Assembly (NCBI GenBank): GCA_016183985.1
Contig: JACPDN010000010.1
Location: forward strand, 434,001-498,000
Direction of reading: 5' to 3'
Source: Pseudomonadota bacterium
Lineage (GTDB): Bacteria > Pseudomonadota > Alphaproteobacteria > Dongiales > Dongiaceae
DNA length: 64,000 bases
The notes under the pieces were generated by a model. That model saw only the letters and a list, made by a program, of their open reading frames with translations, did no database searches and had not been told where the DNA came from. Within the stretch, counting starts at the first letter, position 1. Every line of letters starts with the position of its first letter. A program made the translations under genes and the position numbers. Positions 4,703 to 62,032 of this stretch are shown here, in pieces.

Positions 4703-4790
4703 GTCATCCCTTGCGAAGGCGGGGGATCCACGAGTTACTTCTTCATGTTGCTGAGAAACTCGTGGATGGTCCGCCTCCGCGGACCATGAC
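4703..4790. repeat. Twin-hairpin GTCAT repeat (88 bp)
   Basis: Fills the gap between the convergent glxA-type gene and hslU. Both ends read GTCAT inwards, each is followed by a 7-bp hairpin, then ATCCACGAGTT, in inverted orientation. The right half has a perfect stem (GGTCCGC/GCGGACC). The left stem (CCCTTGC/GCGGGGG) keeps pairing only through two G-U type pairs. It belongs to the family that includes 19174-19755, 24165, 41874 and 61955. Confidence 0.8.
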
Positions 4791-19173: not shown

Positions 19174-19755
19174 GTCATGCCCGGGCTTGTCCCGGGCATC
19201 CAGTCTCGCAGACGGCACTACTGGATCCCCGGGACTGCGCCCGGGGATGACGGTAGAGGGTGGGGCGGTGACGTCGTCAGGCAGAATGACGAGGGCGCGA
19301 GAACGACGGGGGGCGGGGCGACGAGGGGGAGGCGATACGCAACCGGTCAGCGGGCGCCATGCACCTGCCCAAGTTCGTCATGCCCGGGCTTGTCCCGGGC
19401 ATCCAGTCTCGTAGACGGCACCACTGGATCCCCGGGACTGCGCCCGGGGATGACGGTAGGGGGTGGGGACGACGAGGAAGAGGCGATACGCAACCGGTCA
19501 ACGGGCCCCATGCACCTGCCCAAGTTCGTCATGCCCGGGCTTGTCCCGGGCATCCAGTTTCGCAGGCGGCACCGCTGGATCCCCGGGACTGCGCCCGGGG
19601 ATGACGGTAGGGGGCGGAGCGACGAGGGGGAGGCGATACGCAACCGGTCAACGGGCGCCATGCGCCTGCCCAAGTTCGTCATGCCCGGGCTTGTCCCGGG
19701 CATCCAGTTTCGCAGACGGCACCAGTGGATCCCCGGGACTGCGCCCGGGGATGAC
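19174..19755. repeat. Array of four 78-bp twin-hairpin repeats
   Basis: Four near-identical 78-bp units at 19174-19251, 19377-19454, 19528-19605 and 19678-19755. The last three recur at 150-151 bp because a conserved spacer (containing GCGATACGCAACCGGTCA) is duplicated with them; the first interval is 203 bp. Each unit begins GTCAT, has a hairpin with stem GCCCGGG/CCCGGGC, then ATCCAG, a short loop, and an inverted second half with stem CCCCGGG/CCCGGGG ending ATGAC. A fifth identical-length unit lies in the predicted origin at 61955. The array ends 30 bases from the stop of a GIY-YIG gene. Confidence 0.93.
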
Positions 19756-19785
19756 GGTAGAGGGTGGGGACGACGATGGGCTGAG

Positions 19786-20073
19786 TTACAGCATCAGCCT
19801 GTCATAGAGGTCATCCCAATCGGGATTGCTGGCTTCGATCACATTGATCTTCCAGGCGCGCGGCCAGTGTTTGATGCTCTTTTCGCGCTGGATCGCCGAT
19901 CGGATATCGTCGTGAAATTCAGCAAAGACCAAGCGCTTCAGCGCATATCGCGCGGTGAACCCGTCAACGACGTGGGTCCGATGCTCCCACGCCCGTCTCG
20001 ATAGGTCGCTGGTGACGCCGGTATAGAGCGTGCCGAGTTTTCTGTTCGTGACGATGTAGACCCAGCCGCCCAT
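19786..20073 (-). CDS. GIY-YIG nuclease-family protein, repeat-associated
   Basis: A 95-residue single-domain GIY-YIG protein. The GIY and YIG strands are seen as GGWVYIVTN and TLYTGVT, followed by the conserved Arg region DLSRRAWEHR and a Glu in REKSIKHW. There is no DNA-binding extension. By eye it is about 65 percent identical, without gaps, to the protein at 41934-42230. Its 3' end faces the four-copy repeat array 30 bases away; its 5' end is 14 bases from the yggS stop. The repeat association suggests a mobile or repeat-processing role, not a housekeeping one. Function is inferred. Confidence 0.88.
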   Translation of the reverse strand: MGGWVYIVTNRKLGTLYTGVTSDLSRRAWEHRTHVVDGFTARYALKRLVFAEFHDDIRSAIQREKSIKHWPRAWKINVIEASNPDWDDLYDRLML

Positions 20074-24164: not shown

Positions 24165-24251
24165 GTCATGGCCCGCTTTAGGCGGGCCATCCACGAGTTT
24201 GTCGGCAGCGGCTTGTAATTCGTGGATGGCCCGCCTAAAGCGGGCCATGAC
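24165..24251. repeat. Twin-hairpin GTCAT repeat (87 bp)
   Basis: Lies between the DUF3576 gene and leuS. The two arms match perfectly in inverted orientation for 32 bases: GTCAT, a hairpin with stem GGCCCGC/GCGGGCC, then ATCCACGA. The central loop is about 23 bases and has no gene. The GTCAT ends and ATCCACGA are shared with 4703 and 41874, but the stem sequence differs. Confidence 0.88.
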
Positions 24252-33988: not shown

Positions 33989-35869
33989 TCACGCGCTCTG
34001 CCGCTCCGCCTTCTGCCGCCGGACATGGCGCAGCAAGACCGTGAGGGCCGCCGGGGTAATGCCGGAGATGCGGCCGGCGGCACCGAGCGACGCGGGCCGG
34101 GCGTTTTTGAGCTTCTCGCGGACTTCCGCCGAGAGCGAGGCCACCTGGTCGTAATCGAGATCCTCGGGCAACAGCAGCGCTTCGTCCTTGCGGAAGGCGA
34201 TGATGTCGGCGTCCTGGCGCTTCAGATATCCGGCATAGCGGCCGTCGATTTCGATCTGCTCGGCGATTTCGGGGGCGAAACCGGCCACTTCCGGCCAGAT
34301 CTGCGCCACGCGGGCGAGGTCGATTTCGGGGTAGCTGAGCAGCCCCATCGCAGTCCGGCGCTGGCCGTCCTGGTTGATGGTGAGGCCGTGGTTCTTCAGT
34401 TCATTGGGTGTCGCCGAAAGTTCGGCCATGCGGACGCGCGCCGTTTCCAGCGCCGCCATCTTGGTGGAAAAGGCCGATTCACGGGCGTTTCCGACGCATC
34501 CCCAGGCGATCCCGAGGGCCGTCAGCCGCTGGTCGGCGTTGTCCTGGCGCAGCTGCAGCCGGTATTCGGCGCGGCTGGTGAACATGCGGTAGGGCTCGGC
34601 CGTTCCACGTGAAACAAGGTCGTCGATCATGACGCCGATATAGGCGCTGGCCCGGTCGAGGGTCACACCCGCCCCCGCCCCGCCGGCCAGCCGCGCGGCA
34701 TTGAGGCCGGCCATCAGCCCCTGCGCCGCCGCTTCCTCATAGCCCGTGGTGCCGTTGATCTGCCCGGCCAGGAATAGGCCCGGCAACGCGCGAAGCTCCA
34801 AAGTCGGCTTCAGGGCGCGCGGGTCGACGAAATCGTATTCGATGGCATAGCCCGGGCGCAGCATGACGGCATGCTCGAGCCCGGCGATCGTCTTCAGCAA
34901 ACCCGCCTGCACGTCAGCCGGGAGCGAGGTCGAAATGCCGTTGGGATAGACGGTGTCGTCGTCCAGACCTTCCGGCTCCAGGAAGATCTGGTGCCGGTCC
35001 TTTTCGGCGAACCGCACTACCTTATCCTCGATGGAGGGGCAATAACGCGGCCCCGTCCCCTCGATCTGGCCCGAATAGATGGGCGCGCGGTGGAGGTTGC
35101 CGCGGATCAACTCATGGCCCGCTTGGGATGTATAGGTGATGCCGCAGGCAATCTGGGGCGTCGTGATTTCCCGGGTGAGATACGACATCGGCGCCGGCGG
35201 GTTGTCGCCAGGCTGCGATTCCAGAGATTTCCAATCGATGGTGCGGCCGTCGAGGCGCGGTGGCGTCCCGGTCTTCAGGCGCCCCAACGGCAGGTCGAGG
35301 CGCTTGAGGGTTTCGGCCAGCTTCACCGACGGCGCTTCACCGACACGGCCGGCAGGCATTCGCTCCTCGCCGCAATGGATGAGGCCGTTCAAGAAGGTGC
35401 CCGTGGTCAGCACCACGGCGCCGCAAGCCAAACGCTCGCCCGCCTCGGTCACCACGGCGGCGACACGCCCATCTCTGCCGATCTCCAGATCGGCAGCGGC
35501 GCCGGCCTTGAGGGTGAGGTTGGGCTGCTCGGCGAGGAGGGCCTGGACGGCCTGGCGATAGAGTTTGCGATCGGCCTGGGCGCGGGGGCCACGGACGGCC
35601 GGGCCTTTCGACTGGTTGAGCATGCGGAACTGGATGCCACCCTTATCGATGGCACGCGCCATGATCCCGTCGAGGGCGTCGATCTCGCGCACCAGGTGGC
35701 CCTTGGCCAGGCCGCCGATCGCCGGGTTGCAGGACATCTCGCCGACCTTCAGCAGGTCGTGGGTGAGGAGTAGTGTCCGGGCGCCGAGGCGCGCGGCAGC
35801 CGCTGCCGCTTCCGTTCCGGCATGGCCGCCACCGACCACAATAACGTCGTATGTCTGTTCAGTGCTCAT
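33989..35869 (-). CDS. mnmG: tRNA U34 carboxymethylaminomethyl enzyme MnmG (GidA)
   Basis: FAD protein that works with MnmE to modify U34 of several tRNAs. 626 residues, normal length. The N-terminal Rossmann motif is [19 protein letters not shown], the CNPAIGG block and [10 protein letters not shown] are typical, and the C-terminal helical domain includes YLKRQDADI. The start codon touches a parS site. It follows mnmE by 56 bases on the minus strand. Confidence 0.98.
34601..34616. other. Degenerate parS-like site
   Basis: CGTTCCACGTGAAACA matches the 16-base parS consensus at 14 positions. It lies inside mnmG, between the two perfect sites. Coding constraint could explain part of the match. 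Confidence 0.5.
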
Positions 35870-40775: not shown

Positions 40776-40798
40776 TTTCCAGGATGATCGGAACCACC

Positions 40799-41827
40799 AT
40801 GCCCACCCCTCGCCGCATCGCCATCGTGCTGTTCAATCTCGGCGGGCCGGATTCACTTGCGGCCGTGCAGCCGTTTCTCTTCAACCTCTTCAACGACCGC
40901 AGCATCATCAATCTGCCGCAGCCCTTGCGCTGGGCGATTGCCAAGCTCATCTCGTCGCGCCGCACGCCGACGGCCACCCATGTCTATCAGCAAATGGGCG
41001 GGCGCTCGCCGATCCTCCCCAATACGGAAGCCCAGGCGGCAGCGCTCGAGGCGCAGCTTGTCGGCGGCGATGAGGTGCGCTGTTTCATCGCCATGCGCTA
41101 TTGGCTTCCGTTCACGGAAGATGTGGCGCGGGATGTGAAGGCCTGGGGGCCAGATGAGGTGATCCTGCTGCCGCTCTATCCGCAATTCTCGACCACCACG
41201 ACGGCATCCTCGTTCCGCGTCTGGACGGCAGCGGCGCGGCAGATCGGCCTCACCGCACGCCAGCGCCTGGTCTGCTGCTATCCGGATGAGCCGGGCTTCA
41301 TCGCGGCACTGGCCGACGTCACGGGGGCGGCCATCGCCAAGGCGCAAGCAGATATGCCGGGCATCGCCCCCGCCATCATCTTCTCGGCCCATGGCCTGCC
41401 GCAGAAGATCGTCGATGCCGGCGATCCTTACGTGACCCAGGTCGAGGCCACGGTGCGGGCGGCGGCGGCGGCGCTGGGCCTTGGCAAAGAGGAATACCAG
41501 ATCGCCTATCAAAGCCGCGTCGGTCCGCTGAAATGGGTGGGGCCGGCGACGGATGAAACGATCCTCGCCGCCGCACGCGCAGCCAAACCCATCGTCGTGG
41601 TGCCCGTGGCCTTCGTCTCGGAACATTCCGAAACGCTGGTCGAGCTCGACATCGAATACGGTGCCTTGGCCCGCGACAATGGCGCTACCACCTATGTCCG
41701 GGCACCCACGGTCGCCACCCACCCCACTTTCATCGCCGGCCTCGCTGACCTGGTGCGCAAGACCCTCGCCCAGAACAGCGCAGTGCTGCATGACAGCGGC
41801 AAAGCCGTGGGGTCGTGTGTGTGGTGA
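40799..41827 (+). CDS. hemH: Ferrochelatase
   Basis: Inserts Fe2+ into protoporphyrin IX, the last step of haem synthesis. 342 residues from the ATG at 40799; an ATG at 40784 would add five. Landmarks: NLGGPDSLAAVQPFL at the N-terminus, the metal-binding His in FSAHGLPQKIVDAGDPY, and SEHSETLVELDIEY with the catalytic Glu. A short, soluble-type bacterial enzyme. hemJ follows, but a GIY-YIG element has been inserted between them. Confidence 0.97.
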   Translation: MPTPRRIAIVLFNLGGPDSLAAVQPFLFNLFNDRSIINLPQPLRWAIAKLISSRRTPTATHVYQQMGGRSPILPNTEAQAAALEAQLVGGDEVRCFIAMRYWLPFTEDVARDVKAWGPDEVILLPLYPQFSTTTTASSFRVWTAAARQIGLTARQRLVCCYPDEPGFIAALADVTGAAIAKAQADMPGIAPAIIFSAHGLPQKIVDAGDPYVTQVEATVRAAAAALGLGKEEYQIAYQSRVGPLKWVGPATDETILAAARAAKPIVVVPVAFVSEHSETLVELDIEYGALARDNGATTYVRAPTVATHPTFIAGLADLVRKTLAQNSAVLHDSGKAVGSCVW

Positions 41828-41873
41828 CATTCCGCGCGTTGAAACAGCAATTCGCCTAGCCTAACCTATCTCC

Positions 41874-42282
41874 GTCATGCCCGGGCTTGGCCCGGGTATC
41901 CACGAGTTGCTGACGGCCTCCAGAGACGCTGTCATGGTGGCGCTAGAGAAAGGCGGTTGGGTGTACATGGTCACCAATAAACCCAACGGGATTCTTTACA
42001 CCGGCGTCACGAACGACATCTCGCGCCGTATCGGAGAGCATCGCAGTGGTGCGATCGATGGCTTTTCTCGCCGCTACGGCCTCAAGCGGTTGGTGTTTGC
42101 CGAACAACATGACGATATCCGTTTCGCTATCCAGCGCGAGCGCACGATCAAGCATTGGTCACGCGCGTGGAAGGTGAGGCTGGTCAATCAAATCAATCTC
42201 GACTGGAGTGACCTCTATGATTCGCTTTAGGCCATCACGCGGCGGCAAACTCGTGGATGCCCGGGCCAAGCCCGGGCATGAC
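41874..42282. mobile_element. GIY-YIG element with 35-bp terminal inverted repeats
   Basis: A 409-bp unit between hemH and hemJ. Its ends are inverted 35-base repeats with a single mismatch (41874-41908 and 42248-42282): GTCAT, a hairpin with stem GCCCGGG/CCCGGGC, then ATCCACGAGTT. The only gene inside encodes a GIY-YIG protein whose stop is 18 bases from the right repeat. Gene-free relatives with the same ends are at 4703, 24165 and in the 19174 array. No target-site duplication is obvious. The gene's frame is open back to an ATG at 41877 inside the left repeat. Mobility is inferred. Confidence 0.75.
41934..42230 (+). CDS. GIY-YIG nuclease-family protein inside the element
   Basis: A 98-residue single-domain GIY-YIG protein. 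The core strands are GGWVYMVTN and ILYTGVT, then DISRRIGEHR with the conserved Arg, and RERTIKHW with a possible catalytic Glu. It is about 65 percent identical by eye to the protein at 19786-20073. I start at the ATG at 41934; an in-frame ATG at 41877 within the terminal repeat would add 19 residues. Same strand as hemH and hemJ, so it could be expressed by read-through. No partner gene is in the element. Confidence 0.88.
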   Translation: MVALEKGGWVYMVTNKPNGILYTGVTNDISRRIGEHRSGAIDGFSRRYGLKRLVFAEQHDDIRFAIQRERTIKHWSRAWKVRLVNQINLDWSDLYDSL

Positions 42283-42312
42283 GTGTTTTACTTGGTAGGG
42301 GTTCGCTGAGTC

Positions 42313-42741
42313 ATGGACCCATATTTCTGGCTTAAAGCGCTGCATGTCATTTCCGTCATCGCCTGGATGGCGGGGATGCTCTATCTGCCGCGCCTCTATG
42401 TCTATCACGCGAAGGCCAAGCCCGGTTCCGAGCTCGGTGAAACCTTCAAGGTGATGGAGCGGCGGTTGCTGCGGGCCATCATCAATCCGGCGATGCTGGC
42501 CTCCTGGGTCTTCGGTCTGTCCCTCGCGTGGATGGGCGATTGGTGGGGGGCGGGCTGGTTCCATGGCAAGCTCGCTTTGCTGCTCGGCATGCAGTTGACC
42601 CACGCCGCTTACGCGCGCTGGCGGCGGCAATTCGCCAATGACGCCAATACCCATGACGAGAAGTTCTTCCGCATCATGAACGAGGTGCCGACGTTGCTCA
42701 TGATCGGCATCGTTATCCTGGTAGTCGTGAAACCGTTCTGA
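42313..42741 (+). CDS. hemJ: Protoporphyrinogen oxidase HemJ
   Basis: The membrane protoporphyrinogen IX oxidase used by most alphaproteobacteria. 142 residues with about four transmembrane helices (6-24, 55-75, 82-100, 122-140). The family block WLKALHVISVIAWMAGMLYLPRL carries the conserved His near the N-terminus; ERRLLRAIINPAM is also typical. It functions with hemH upstream. The normal hemH-hemJ-rho order is kept apart from two insertions. Confidence 0.95.
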   Translation: MDPYFWLKALHVISVIAWMAGMLYLPRLYVYHAKAKPGSELGETFKVMERRLLRAIINPAMLASWVFGLSLAWMGDWWGAGWFHGKLALLLGMQLTHAAYARWRRQFANDANTHDEKFFRIMNEVPTLLMIGIVILVVVKPF

Positions 42742-61954: not shown

Positions 61955-62032
61955 GTCATGCCCGGACTTGTTCCGGGCATCCAGTCTCTCAAGTGGCACC
62001 ACTGGATCCCCGGGACTTCGCCCGGGGATGAC
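61955..62032. repeat. Twin-hairpin GTCAT repeat inside the predicted origin
   Basis: A 78-bp unit of exactly the same length and layout as the four in the 19174 array. The left stem is GCCCGGA/TCCGGGC, where the array has GCCCGGG/CCCGGGC: both sides have changed so that pairing is kept. The right stem is CCCCGGG/CCCGGGG. It lies between the DnaA-box clusters. Confidence 0.9.

Follow-up and report, generated by a model that had tools for sequence, protein, structure and literature searches.

A small GIY-YIG nuclease gene enclosed by CGTC-type REPs in a Dongiaceae genome, and the pairing of its homologs with such repeats

Introduction

In a Dongiaceae genome (4.65 Mb in 16 contigs) a gene for a small GIY-YIG nuclease stands between hemH and hemJ, enclosed by inverted repeats. 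The stretch of 64,000 nt that was analysed is called the window here. The locus raises the question of whether such a nuclease is the partner, and possibly the maker, of the repeats that surround it. CGTC REPs are present in many bacteria, and the survey of Di Nocera, De Gregorio and Rocco (2013; PMC3733652), in its passages on their origin, leaves their maker open: the repeats are apparently without a dedicated transposase, and no RAYT gene flanked by CGTC repeats was found. The word GIY has 0 occurrences in its main text, and a literature search of partial coverage returned no title or abstract opening that connects GIY-YIG with REPs. A nuclease that travels with CGTC REPs would be a testable candidate for the maker and would provide a set of enzyme-repeat pairs for comparison.

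Results and Discussion

The nuclease unit between hemH and hemJ

The features of the locus, in window coordinates, are as follows.

40784-41827, forward strand: hemH (ferrochelatase), left neighbour, PF00762 at 354 bits
41873-41908, forward strand: left CGTC-type REP, an inverted-repeat arm with a hairpin stem, its GTCA tag facing outward
41934-42230, forward strand: GIY-YIG nuclease gene of 98 codons, ATG at 41934, stop codon ending at 42230
42248-42283, reverse strand: right CGTC-type REP, mirroring the left REP with one mismatch
42313-42741, forward strand: hemJ (UPF0093), right neighbour, PF03653 at 199 bits

The two arms are 36 nt each, 97% complementary with a single mismatch, and are spaced by 339 nt. 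This confirms the near-perfect, hairpin-bearing inverted ends that a first-pass annotation of this DNA had placed around the 98-residue gene. Folded as single-stranded DNA, the arms form hairpins at -10.8 and -14.3 kcal/mol, values that were equalled by 0 of 200 shuffles for either arm, and both folds allow the tag's CGT to pair with ACG. The open frame of the nuclease gene extends upstream to 41877, i.e., into the left REP.

The translated protein matches GIY-YIG (PF01541) with 56.5 bits against a cut-off of 22.6. It is the sole family matched in the Pfam search, with no Y1 HUH domain and no known transposase or recombinase, and the earlier statement that the protein is neither a DDE, HUH nor tyrosine recombinase agrees with this. 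The hemH-hemJ unit has terminal inverted repeats as does a classical insertion sequence or transposon, but differs from these in that a known transposase or recombinase is absent from it. A group I intron endonuclease, the sole NCBIfam match, scored below threshold (19.7 bits against 56.05) and was rejected as an identity. An Rfam search over 41800-42320 gave nothing at E up to 1.

REPs in the window and in the source genome

Further repeats and a second nuclease gene are found elsewhere in the window.

4767-4790, reverse strand: single REP with yet another stem sequence
19174-19755: four tandem REP pairs (19174-19251, 19377-19454, 19528-19605 and 19678-19755)
19786-20073, reverse strand: second GIY-YIG gene, of the subfamily of the hemH-hemJ gene and 66% identical to it, with REPs found on its 3′ side only
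24165-24251: gene-free REP pair with another stem sequence (type D)
61955-62032: gene-free REP pair

A first REP pattern, GTCATTSCGARSS, gave 23 matches against a shuffle mean of 29 and was dropped as not enriched. A 23-nt core, allowed up to 3 mismatches, is found at 7 places in the window and at none in 100 shuffles. At the same stringency the whole genome has 125 matches (70 forward, 55 reverse), and the pattern read backwards has 0. Seven of the eight REP places in the window are head-to-head, the nuclease unit being counted as one place. The first-pass annotation had stated that the ends of the unit recur in the window without the gene. This is correct in that no gene lies between the arms of the other pairs. 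However, the four tandem pairs adjoin the second GIY-YIG gene (19786-20073), and thus their surroundings are not gene-free. Within about 1.5 kb of UvrC and two other GIY-YIG genes of the source genome no window REP core is found.

The window repeats are CGTC-tagged REPs: short hairpins with a CGTC tag at one end, present in many copies and mostly head-to-head. They start with CGTC/GTCA and not with GTAG. They resemble the CGTC REPs described in the passages of PMC3733652 on that class in the tag, in a hairpin stem of 8-9 with a short loop, in the dominance of head-to-head dimers and in their abundance in alphaproteobacteria; dRS3 is the Neisseria form. They differ in that a GIY-YIG gene stands between repeats here, whereas those passages report no dedicated transposase. 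The RAYT/REPIN system provides a second likeness, because there also a gene is flanked by palindromic REPs, gene-free REP pairs are found genome-wide, and several gene-repeat lineages may coexist in one genome. As in REPtrons, the REPs that flank the nuclease gene are of the type found throughout the genome. The differences are that the enzyme is GIY-YIG and not a Y1 HUH transposase, and that the tag is CGTC/GTCA and not GTAG.

It should be noted that genome G002 has, beside a neighbour gene shared with window region 19174-20073, another GIY-YIG gene and another repeat type. The two loci (L015 and L022) have 1.1 kb of flank in common.

Most homologs are bracketed by repeats

Homologs were found in 16 of the 17 family genomes and, at E up to 0.001, in 180 of 385 genomes of the class (by hand count, 122 have E below 1e-20); no more than 13 first-look candidates were scored per genome in the class scan, so that nuclease genes may have been missed. 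In Sinorhizobium meliloti strain Ak57 the homolog has gltA and lpxB as its neighbours, and Novosphingobium aromaticivorans DSM 12444 also has the gene. From named genomes of several phyla, the best 80 of 589 were confirmed. Of the 160 loci obtained, 143 were kept; in 1 of those dropped the gene could not be located, 10 were duplicates and 6 had less than 200 bp of flank. Orthologous loci of related genomes were retained, and the 143 are not independent.

An inverted repeat with a score of 16 or more spans the gene in 80 of the 143 loci, and 95 have a REP on either side of the gene, mirrored in 90. Taken together, 109 loci are bracketed by an inverted repeat or by REPs on both sides, and 34 are not; a REP was detected on one side only in 28. 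At least one sign of repeats is present in 131 loci and none in 12. Thus the gene without repeats is not as common among relatives as the gene with them; equal frequencies would, by the first-pass annotation, have refuted a mobile unit. The bracketing is GTCA-tagged (REPs on both sides or a tagged arm) in 104 of the 109. Of the other five, L021 and L032 have a second palindrome, which is described below, and L029, L107 and L173 have similar arms in which the tag is changed or absent. In 64 of the 95 loci with REPs on both sides the nearest repeats are mirrored with the tag outward. Although a hairpin was not demanded of the 80 inverted-repeat arms, 69 have a perfect stem of at least 7 and 75 have a GTCA tag; a perfect stem of 7 or more occurs in 23 of 1175 random segments.

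As a control, 322 ORFs from 400 kb of family genomes were taken, and one GIY-YIG gene was set aside. Inverted repeats are found at 2 and mirrored REPs at 3 of the remaining 321, and at 0 of the 67 with 80-150 codons; the stretches were hand-chosen, and of the 20, 2 contain known nuclease loci and 1 was known to carry REPs. In shifted windows at the 80 named loci a score of 16 was reached in 2 of 2306. Comparison of these loci shows that the GIY-YIG subfamily is paired with CGTC-type REPs in several phyla.

Repeats beside the gene could be mere transcription terminators or mRNA stabilisers, which gather beside any gene. The nearest REP after the stop codon lies at a median of 13 bp (95 loci), and REPs are placed predominantly downstream of coding regions in the passages of PMC3733652 on their location; both observations suit such a role. 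Terminators would not be expected on both sides of a gene, mostly mirrored and far more commonly than at other ORFs of the family, nor would their type be expected to follow the nuclease, as it tends to do (see below). We regard this explanation as hardly credible.

Much longer terminal repeats, of 46-70 nt, surround the gene in L071, L077 and L083 (two Caulobacter records and an alphaproteobacterial MAG). The L077 gene copy is broken by a stop.

Repeat type and nuclease lineage

The nearest repeats on the left and right of the gene differ by a mean edit distance of 3.2 within a locus, with 29 of 95 identical, compared with a mean of 9.2 for repeats of different loci. Within the family, 14 comparisons set the repeat at a gene against that of its closest homolog in a different genome and that of a paralog in the same genome; the homolog's repeat is the nearer in 10 (3 lost, 1 tie). 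A Mantel test gave r 0.32, with 0 of 2000 permutations as high, host relatedness being ignored. These comparisons show that left and right repeats match, and that repeat type tends to follow nuclease lineage.

Three repeat types were counted in the 17 family genomes. Type A is found in G005 (38), G009 (69), G010 (42), G011 (31), G008 (4) and G000 (1), and the other 11 have zero. Type A genes are present in G005 (L012, and a second on contig C20 that sits between two type A repeats), G009, G011 (with a variant stem) and G008 (without a start codon). No nuclease gene was found in G010, which is 68% complete. Type B is found in G008 (26), G009 (91), G010 (28), G011 (23), G012 (32) and G013 (1), the rest having zero. 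Genes of this type are present in G008, in G011 and, with an internal deletion that keeps the reading frame, in G009; among the loci fetched no matching gene was found for G012. Type D is found in G000 (13), G002 (12), G004 (6) and G006 (3), the rest having zero. A matching gene for type D is present, among the loci fetched, in G002 only, and three genomes carry the type without one. Thus the counts of types A and B fit a dependence on the cognate gene, with exceptions, and those of type D fit it poorly.

In the type A gene of G008 (L010, contig C51 around 35443-35817) a stop replaces the start codon of the sister copy. G008, with this start-less gene, has its 4 type A repeats against the 38, 69 and 31 of G005, G009 and G011.

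Among the 385 class genomes, the nuclease is found in 45 of the 65 that are REP-rich (at least 5 matches to one pattern) and in 77 of the 320 others (p 8e-12, host kinship ignored). Among 160 large complete class genomes, at least 5 REPs are present in 39 of the 72 with the nuclease and in 17 of the 88 without a detected gene; 28 of the 72 have zero REPs of the single pattern searched.

A further explanation is that a RAYT or other transposase moves the CGTC REPs and that the GIY-YIG gene is a passenger. Y1 transposase genes are indeed present in 5 of the 17 family genomes, the source genome included. Four Y1 loci were fetched out of 8 matches: a CGTC pair lies some 400-500 bp from one of them, and similar hairpins are scattered 350-1350 bp from the other three. 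However none of the four is bracketed within 200 bp, and 12 of the 17 genomes have no Y1 match, among them G009 with its large type A and type B populations, and a dependence of the REPs on RAYT was rejected on these grounds. Nor would a passenger gene be expected to be bracketed across phyla, and the passages of PMC3733652 on RAYT genes likewise give none flanked by CGTC repeats. A passenger gene is thus very improbable.

Occupied and empty sites

hemH and hemJ are adjacent in 17 of 17 family genomes. In the source genome 485 bp separate them and in G006 540 bp; the gap in the remaining 15 genomes is -4 to 48 bp. Empty sites, the absence of which from close relatives would have refuted the mobile unit of the first-pass annotation, thus exist in 15 of the 17 genomes. 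In G006 the gene lies between two repeat pairs and its protein is 74-76% identical, which would suit either a single gain common to both genomes or two independent ones.

A 375-bp unit that ends at GTCA tags is common to G217 and G401, which belong to another genus. At this site G399 lacks the gene and has instead a repeat pair of another type; in the other seven of the ten genomes compared the flank gave no long match. In Sphingobium plasmids the junction between fnrL and a response regulator gene holds a unit, with a full-length match in seven records (three aligned). The same junction has a solo, double-tagged REP in TYG64 and TYG74, has no CGTC REP in TYG72 and TYG65, and is compact in S. 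herbicidovorans. A solo REP would be the expected remnant of a deletion between the ACCCCGGG repeats of both arms; it is also possible that a solo REP gained the gene. In the Azospirillum lipoferum 4B plasmid (L260) a nuclease-repeat unit separates sufB from sufC, as hemH is separated from hemJ here. Comparison of these sites shows a unit that is present or absent at otherwise conserved positions.

When units at unrelated sites are aligned, the alignment ends at most 6 bp from the tag in 416 (left end) and 464 (right end) of 846 pairs, which have members in common. No target-site duplication is visible by eye at the compared sites (hemH-hemJ, G217/G401/G399 and Sphingobium), and beyond the repeats, too, tens of bases distinguish filled from unfilled sites. 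Near-identical copies of the gene within a genome are absent from 20 stretches of five genomes (G138, G307, G353, G322 and G019), and recent amplification of the gene was thus not found there. The closest same-genome gene pairs in the fetched set are 72-78% identical.

The nuclease protein and its Neisseria homolog

Residues G18, Y21, G23, E68 and N87, among others, are invariant in 23 homologs, and R31 and H35 are nearly so; we take these seven to fit the GIY-YIG catalytic motifs. The AlphaFold model has a pLDDT of 91, and its closest fold is the UPF0213 protein BH0048 (E 2e-4), followed by Slx1 with a weak match (E 0.02 and above). Slx1, which acts on branched DNA, and UvrC share the GIY-YIG fold but are larger or partnered proteins. 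In 11 of 12 homolog pairs dN/dS is 0.04-0.13 (the 12th was not computable), and the protein is under strong purifying selection.

In Caulobacter crescentus the GIY-YIG genes CCNA_00744 and CCNA_01405 are reported to be under the control of XRE regulators and subject to repression by a phage regulator (PMC10688885); the passages of that paper on these genes make no link to REPs. A GIY-YIG homolog in the Planktothrix agardhii plasmid (L263) has an MmeI-like restriction enzyme on one side and DISARM drmA on the other. Repeats of the GTCATTCTGAG kind are nearby, and a REP pair was not found by the detector.

The Neisseria gonorrhoeae homolog (L259) is 43% identical to the window protein over 86 residues. 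Its gene lies inside a dRS3-type array of CGTCATTCCCGCGCAGGCGGGAATC repeats, at a place where the feature table is blank, and is presumably the published ssn. Ssn, reported in Nature Communications in 2025, is said to be a site-specific single-strand nuclease of the GIY-YIG superfamily that acts on such repeats and tunes recombination or natural transformation in Neisseria. The study reportedly describes a small enzyme, cognate repeats in hundreds of copies, and thousands of homologs that differ in specificity; the accompaniment of the gene by cognate repeats in many copies is a feature of the present loci also. To our knowledge that work does not treat empty sites, solo-REP states or REPIN-like turnover.

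To the first-pass annotation a GIY-YIG nuclease in this role would be new. With respect to the REP survey, as far as its passages on these repeats go (PMC3733652), this surprise was justified. The enzyme-repeat part is reportedly covered by Ssn. We believe four things to be new here: the link with CGTC REPs in several phyla, repeat populations that are specific to a lineage, sites that are polymorphic and include solo REPs, and the second pairing described below.

The gonococcal homolog within its array suggests a different explanation, namely that the nuclease serves the host. By cutting single strands at REPs, whether these strands are incoming or displaced, it would tune recombination or natural transformation, and the REPs would owe their spread to something else. 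The repeats next to the gene would then act as an anchor or a self-target. Strong purifying selection and a gene that is not recently multiplied in the sampled stretches are in keeping with a host function. On the other hand, units that are placed differently in related genomes, empty sites and differing units or pairs at one site have the look of semi-selfish turnover, and the repeat type tends to follow the gene lineage. A service to the host thus appears unlikely, though it merits consideration.

A probable REPtron-like unit

The best reading of the locus, and one that we hold to be fairly probable, is that of a REPtron-like unit of nuclease and repeats built on an unrelated enzyme, in which the nuclease recognises its own REPs and may spread them. 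Recognition would most likely be of single-stranded DNA hairpins, during replication or DNA uptake, and the nuclease would nick the REPs so recognised. Repair of the nick from another copy could then transfer the repeat, or the whole unit, to the place of the cut by a homing-like gene conversion. Since GIY-YIG enzymes cut by hydrolysis, the ends would have to be joined by host repair. A solo REP would remain after loss between the palindromic arms, and gene-free REP pairs would be a by-product of action in trans.

Nick-and-copy between repeats is consistent with the matched arms, with the lack of a visible target duplication and with the different units at one site. The comparisons show that nuclease and repeats stay together as a unit; that the nuclease does the cutting and the moving is what we infer from them. 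The first-pass annotation had proposed an autonomous element with gene-free derivatives. The matched ends, and lineage-specific populations for two of the three repeat types, fit that proposal. Gene conversion between existing repeats fits as well, and movement enters the proposal by inference. If the nuclease also spreads the repeats, then REP populations have grown up around enzymes that are unrelated to each other, and short intergenic palindromes could be read as traces of nucleases and not as host signals.

A second GIY-YIG subfamily and its palindrome

A broader proposal is that CGTC REPs owe their mobility to small GIY-YIG nucleases, the dedicated enzymes that had been missing, which would have evolved independently of RAYT, and that the pairing is general, a second subfamily serving a CTCATCCTGAGCTTGTCGAAGGATGAG-type palindrome. 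We offer this tentatively, as possible and somewhat doubtful. If it is true, REP-like repeats would have come about as by-products of three or more partnerships between a nuclease and a repeat, two of which involve GIY-YIG enzymes.

In the second subfamily (seed L032), inverted repeats bracket 8 of 12 loci, which are L021, L032, L207, L209, L210, L212, L214 and L215. The palindrome is found on one side in L208 and L213, and on neither side in L211 and L216, the latter a short locus of 1754 bases. It has a variable stem around a conserved GAGCTTGTCGA loop and is of the TGAGC-TTGTCGA type in seven loci. The repeat of L210 is a longer sequence, perhaps related to that type.
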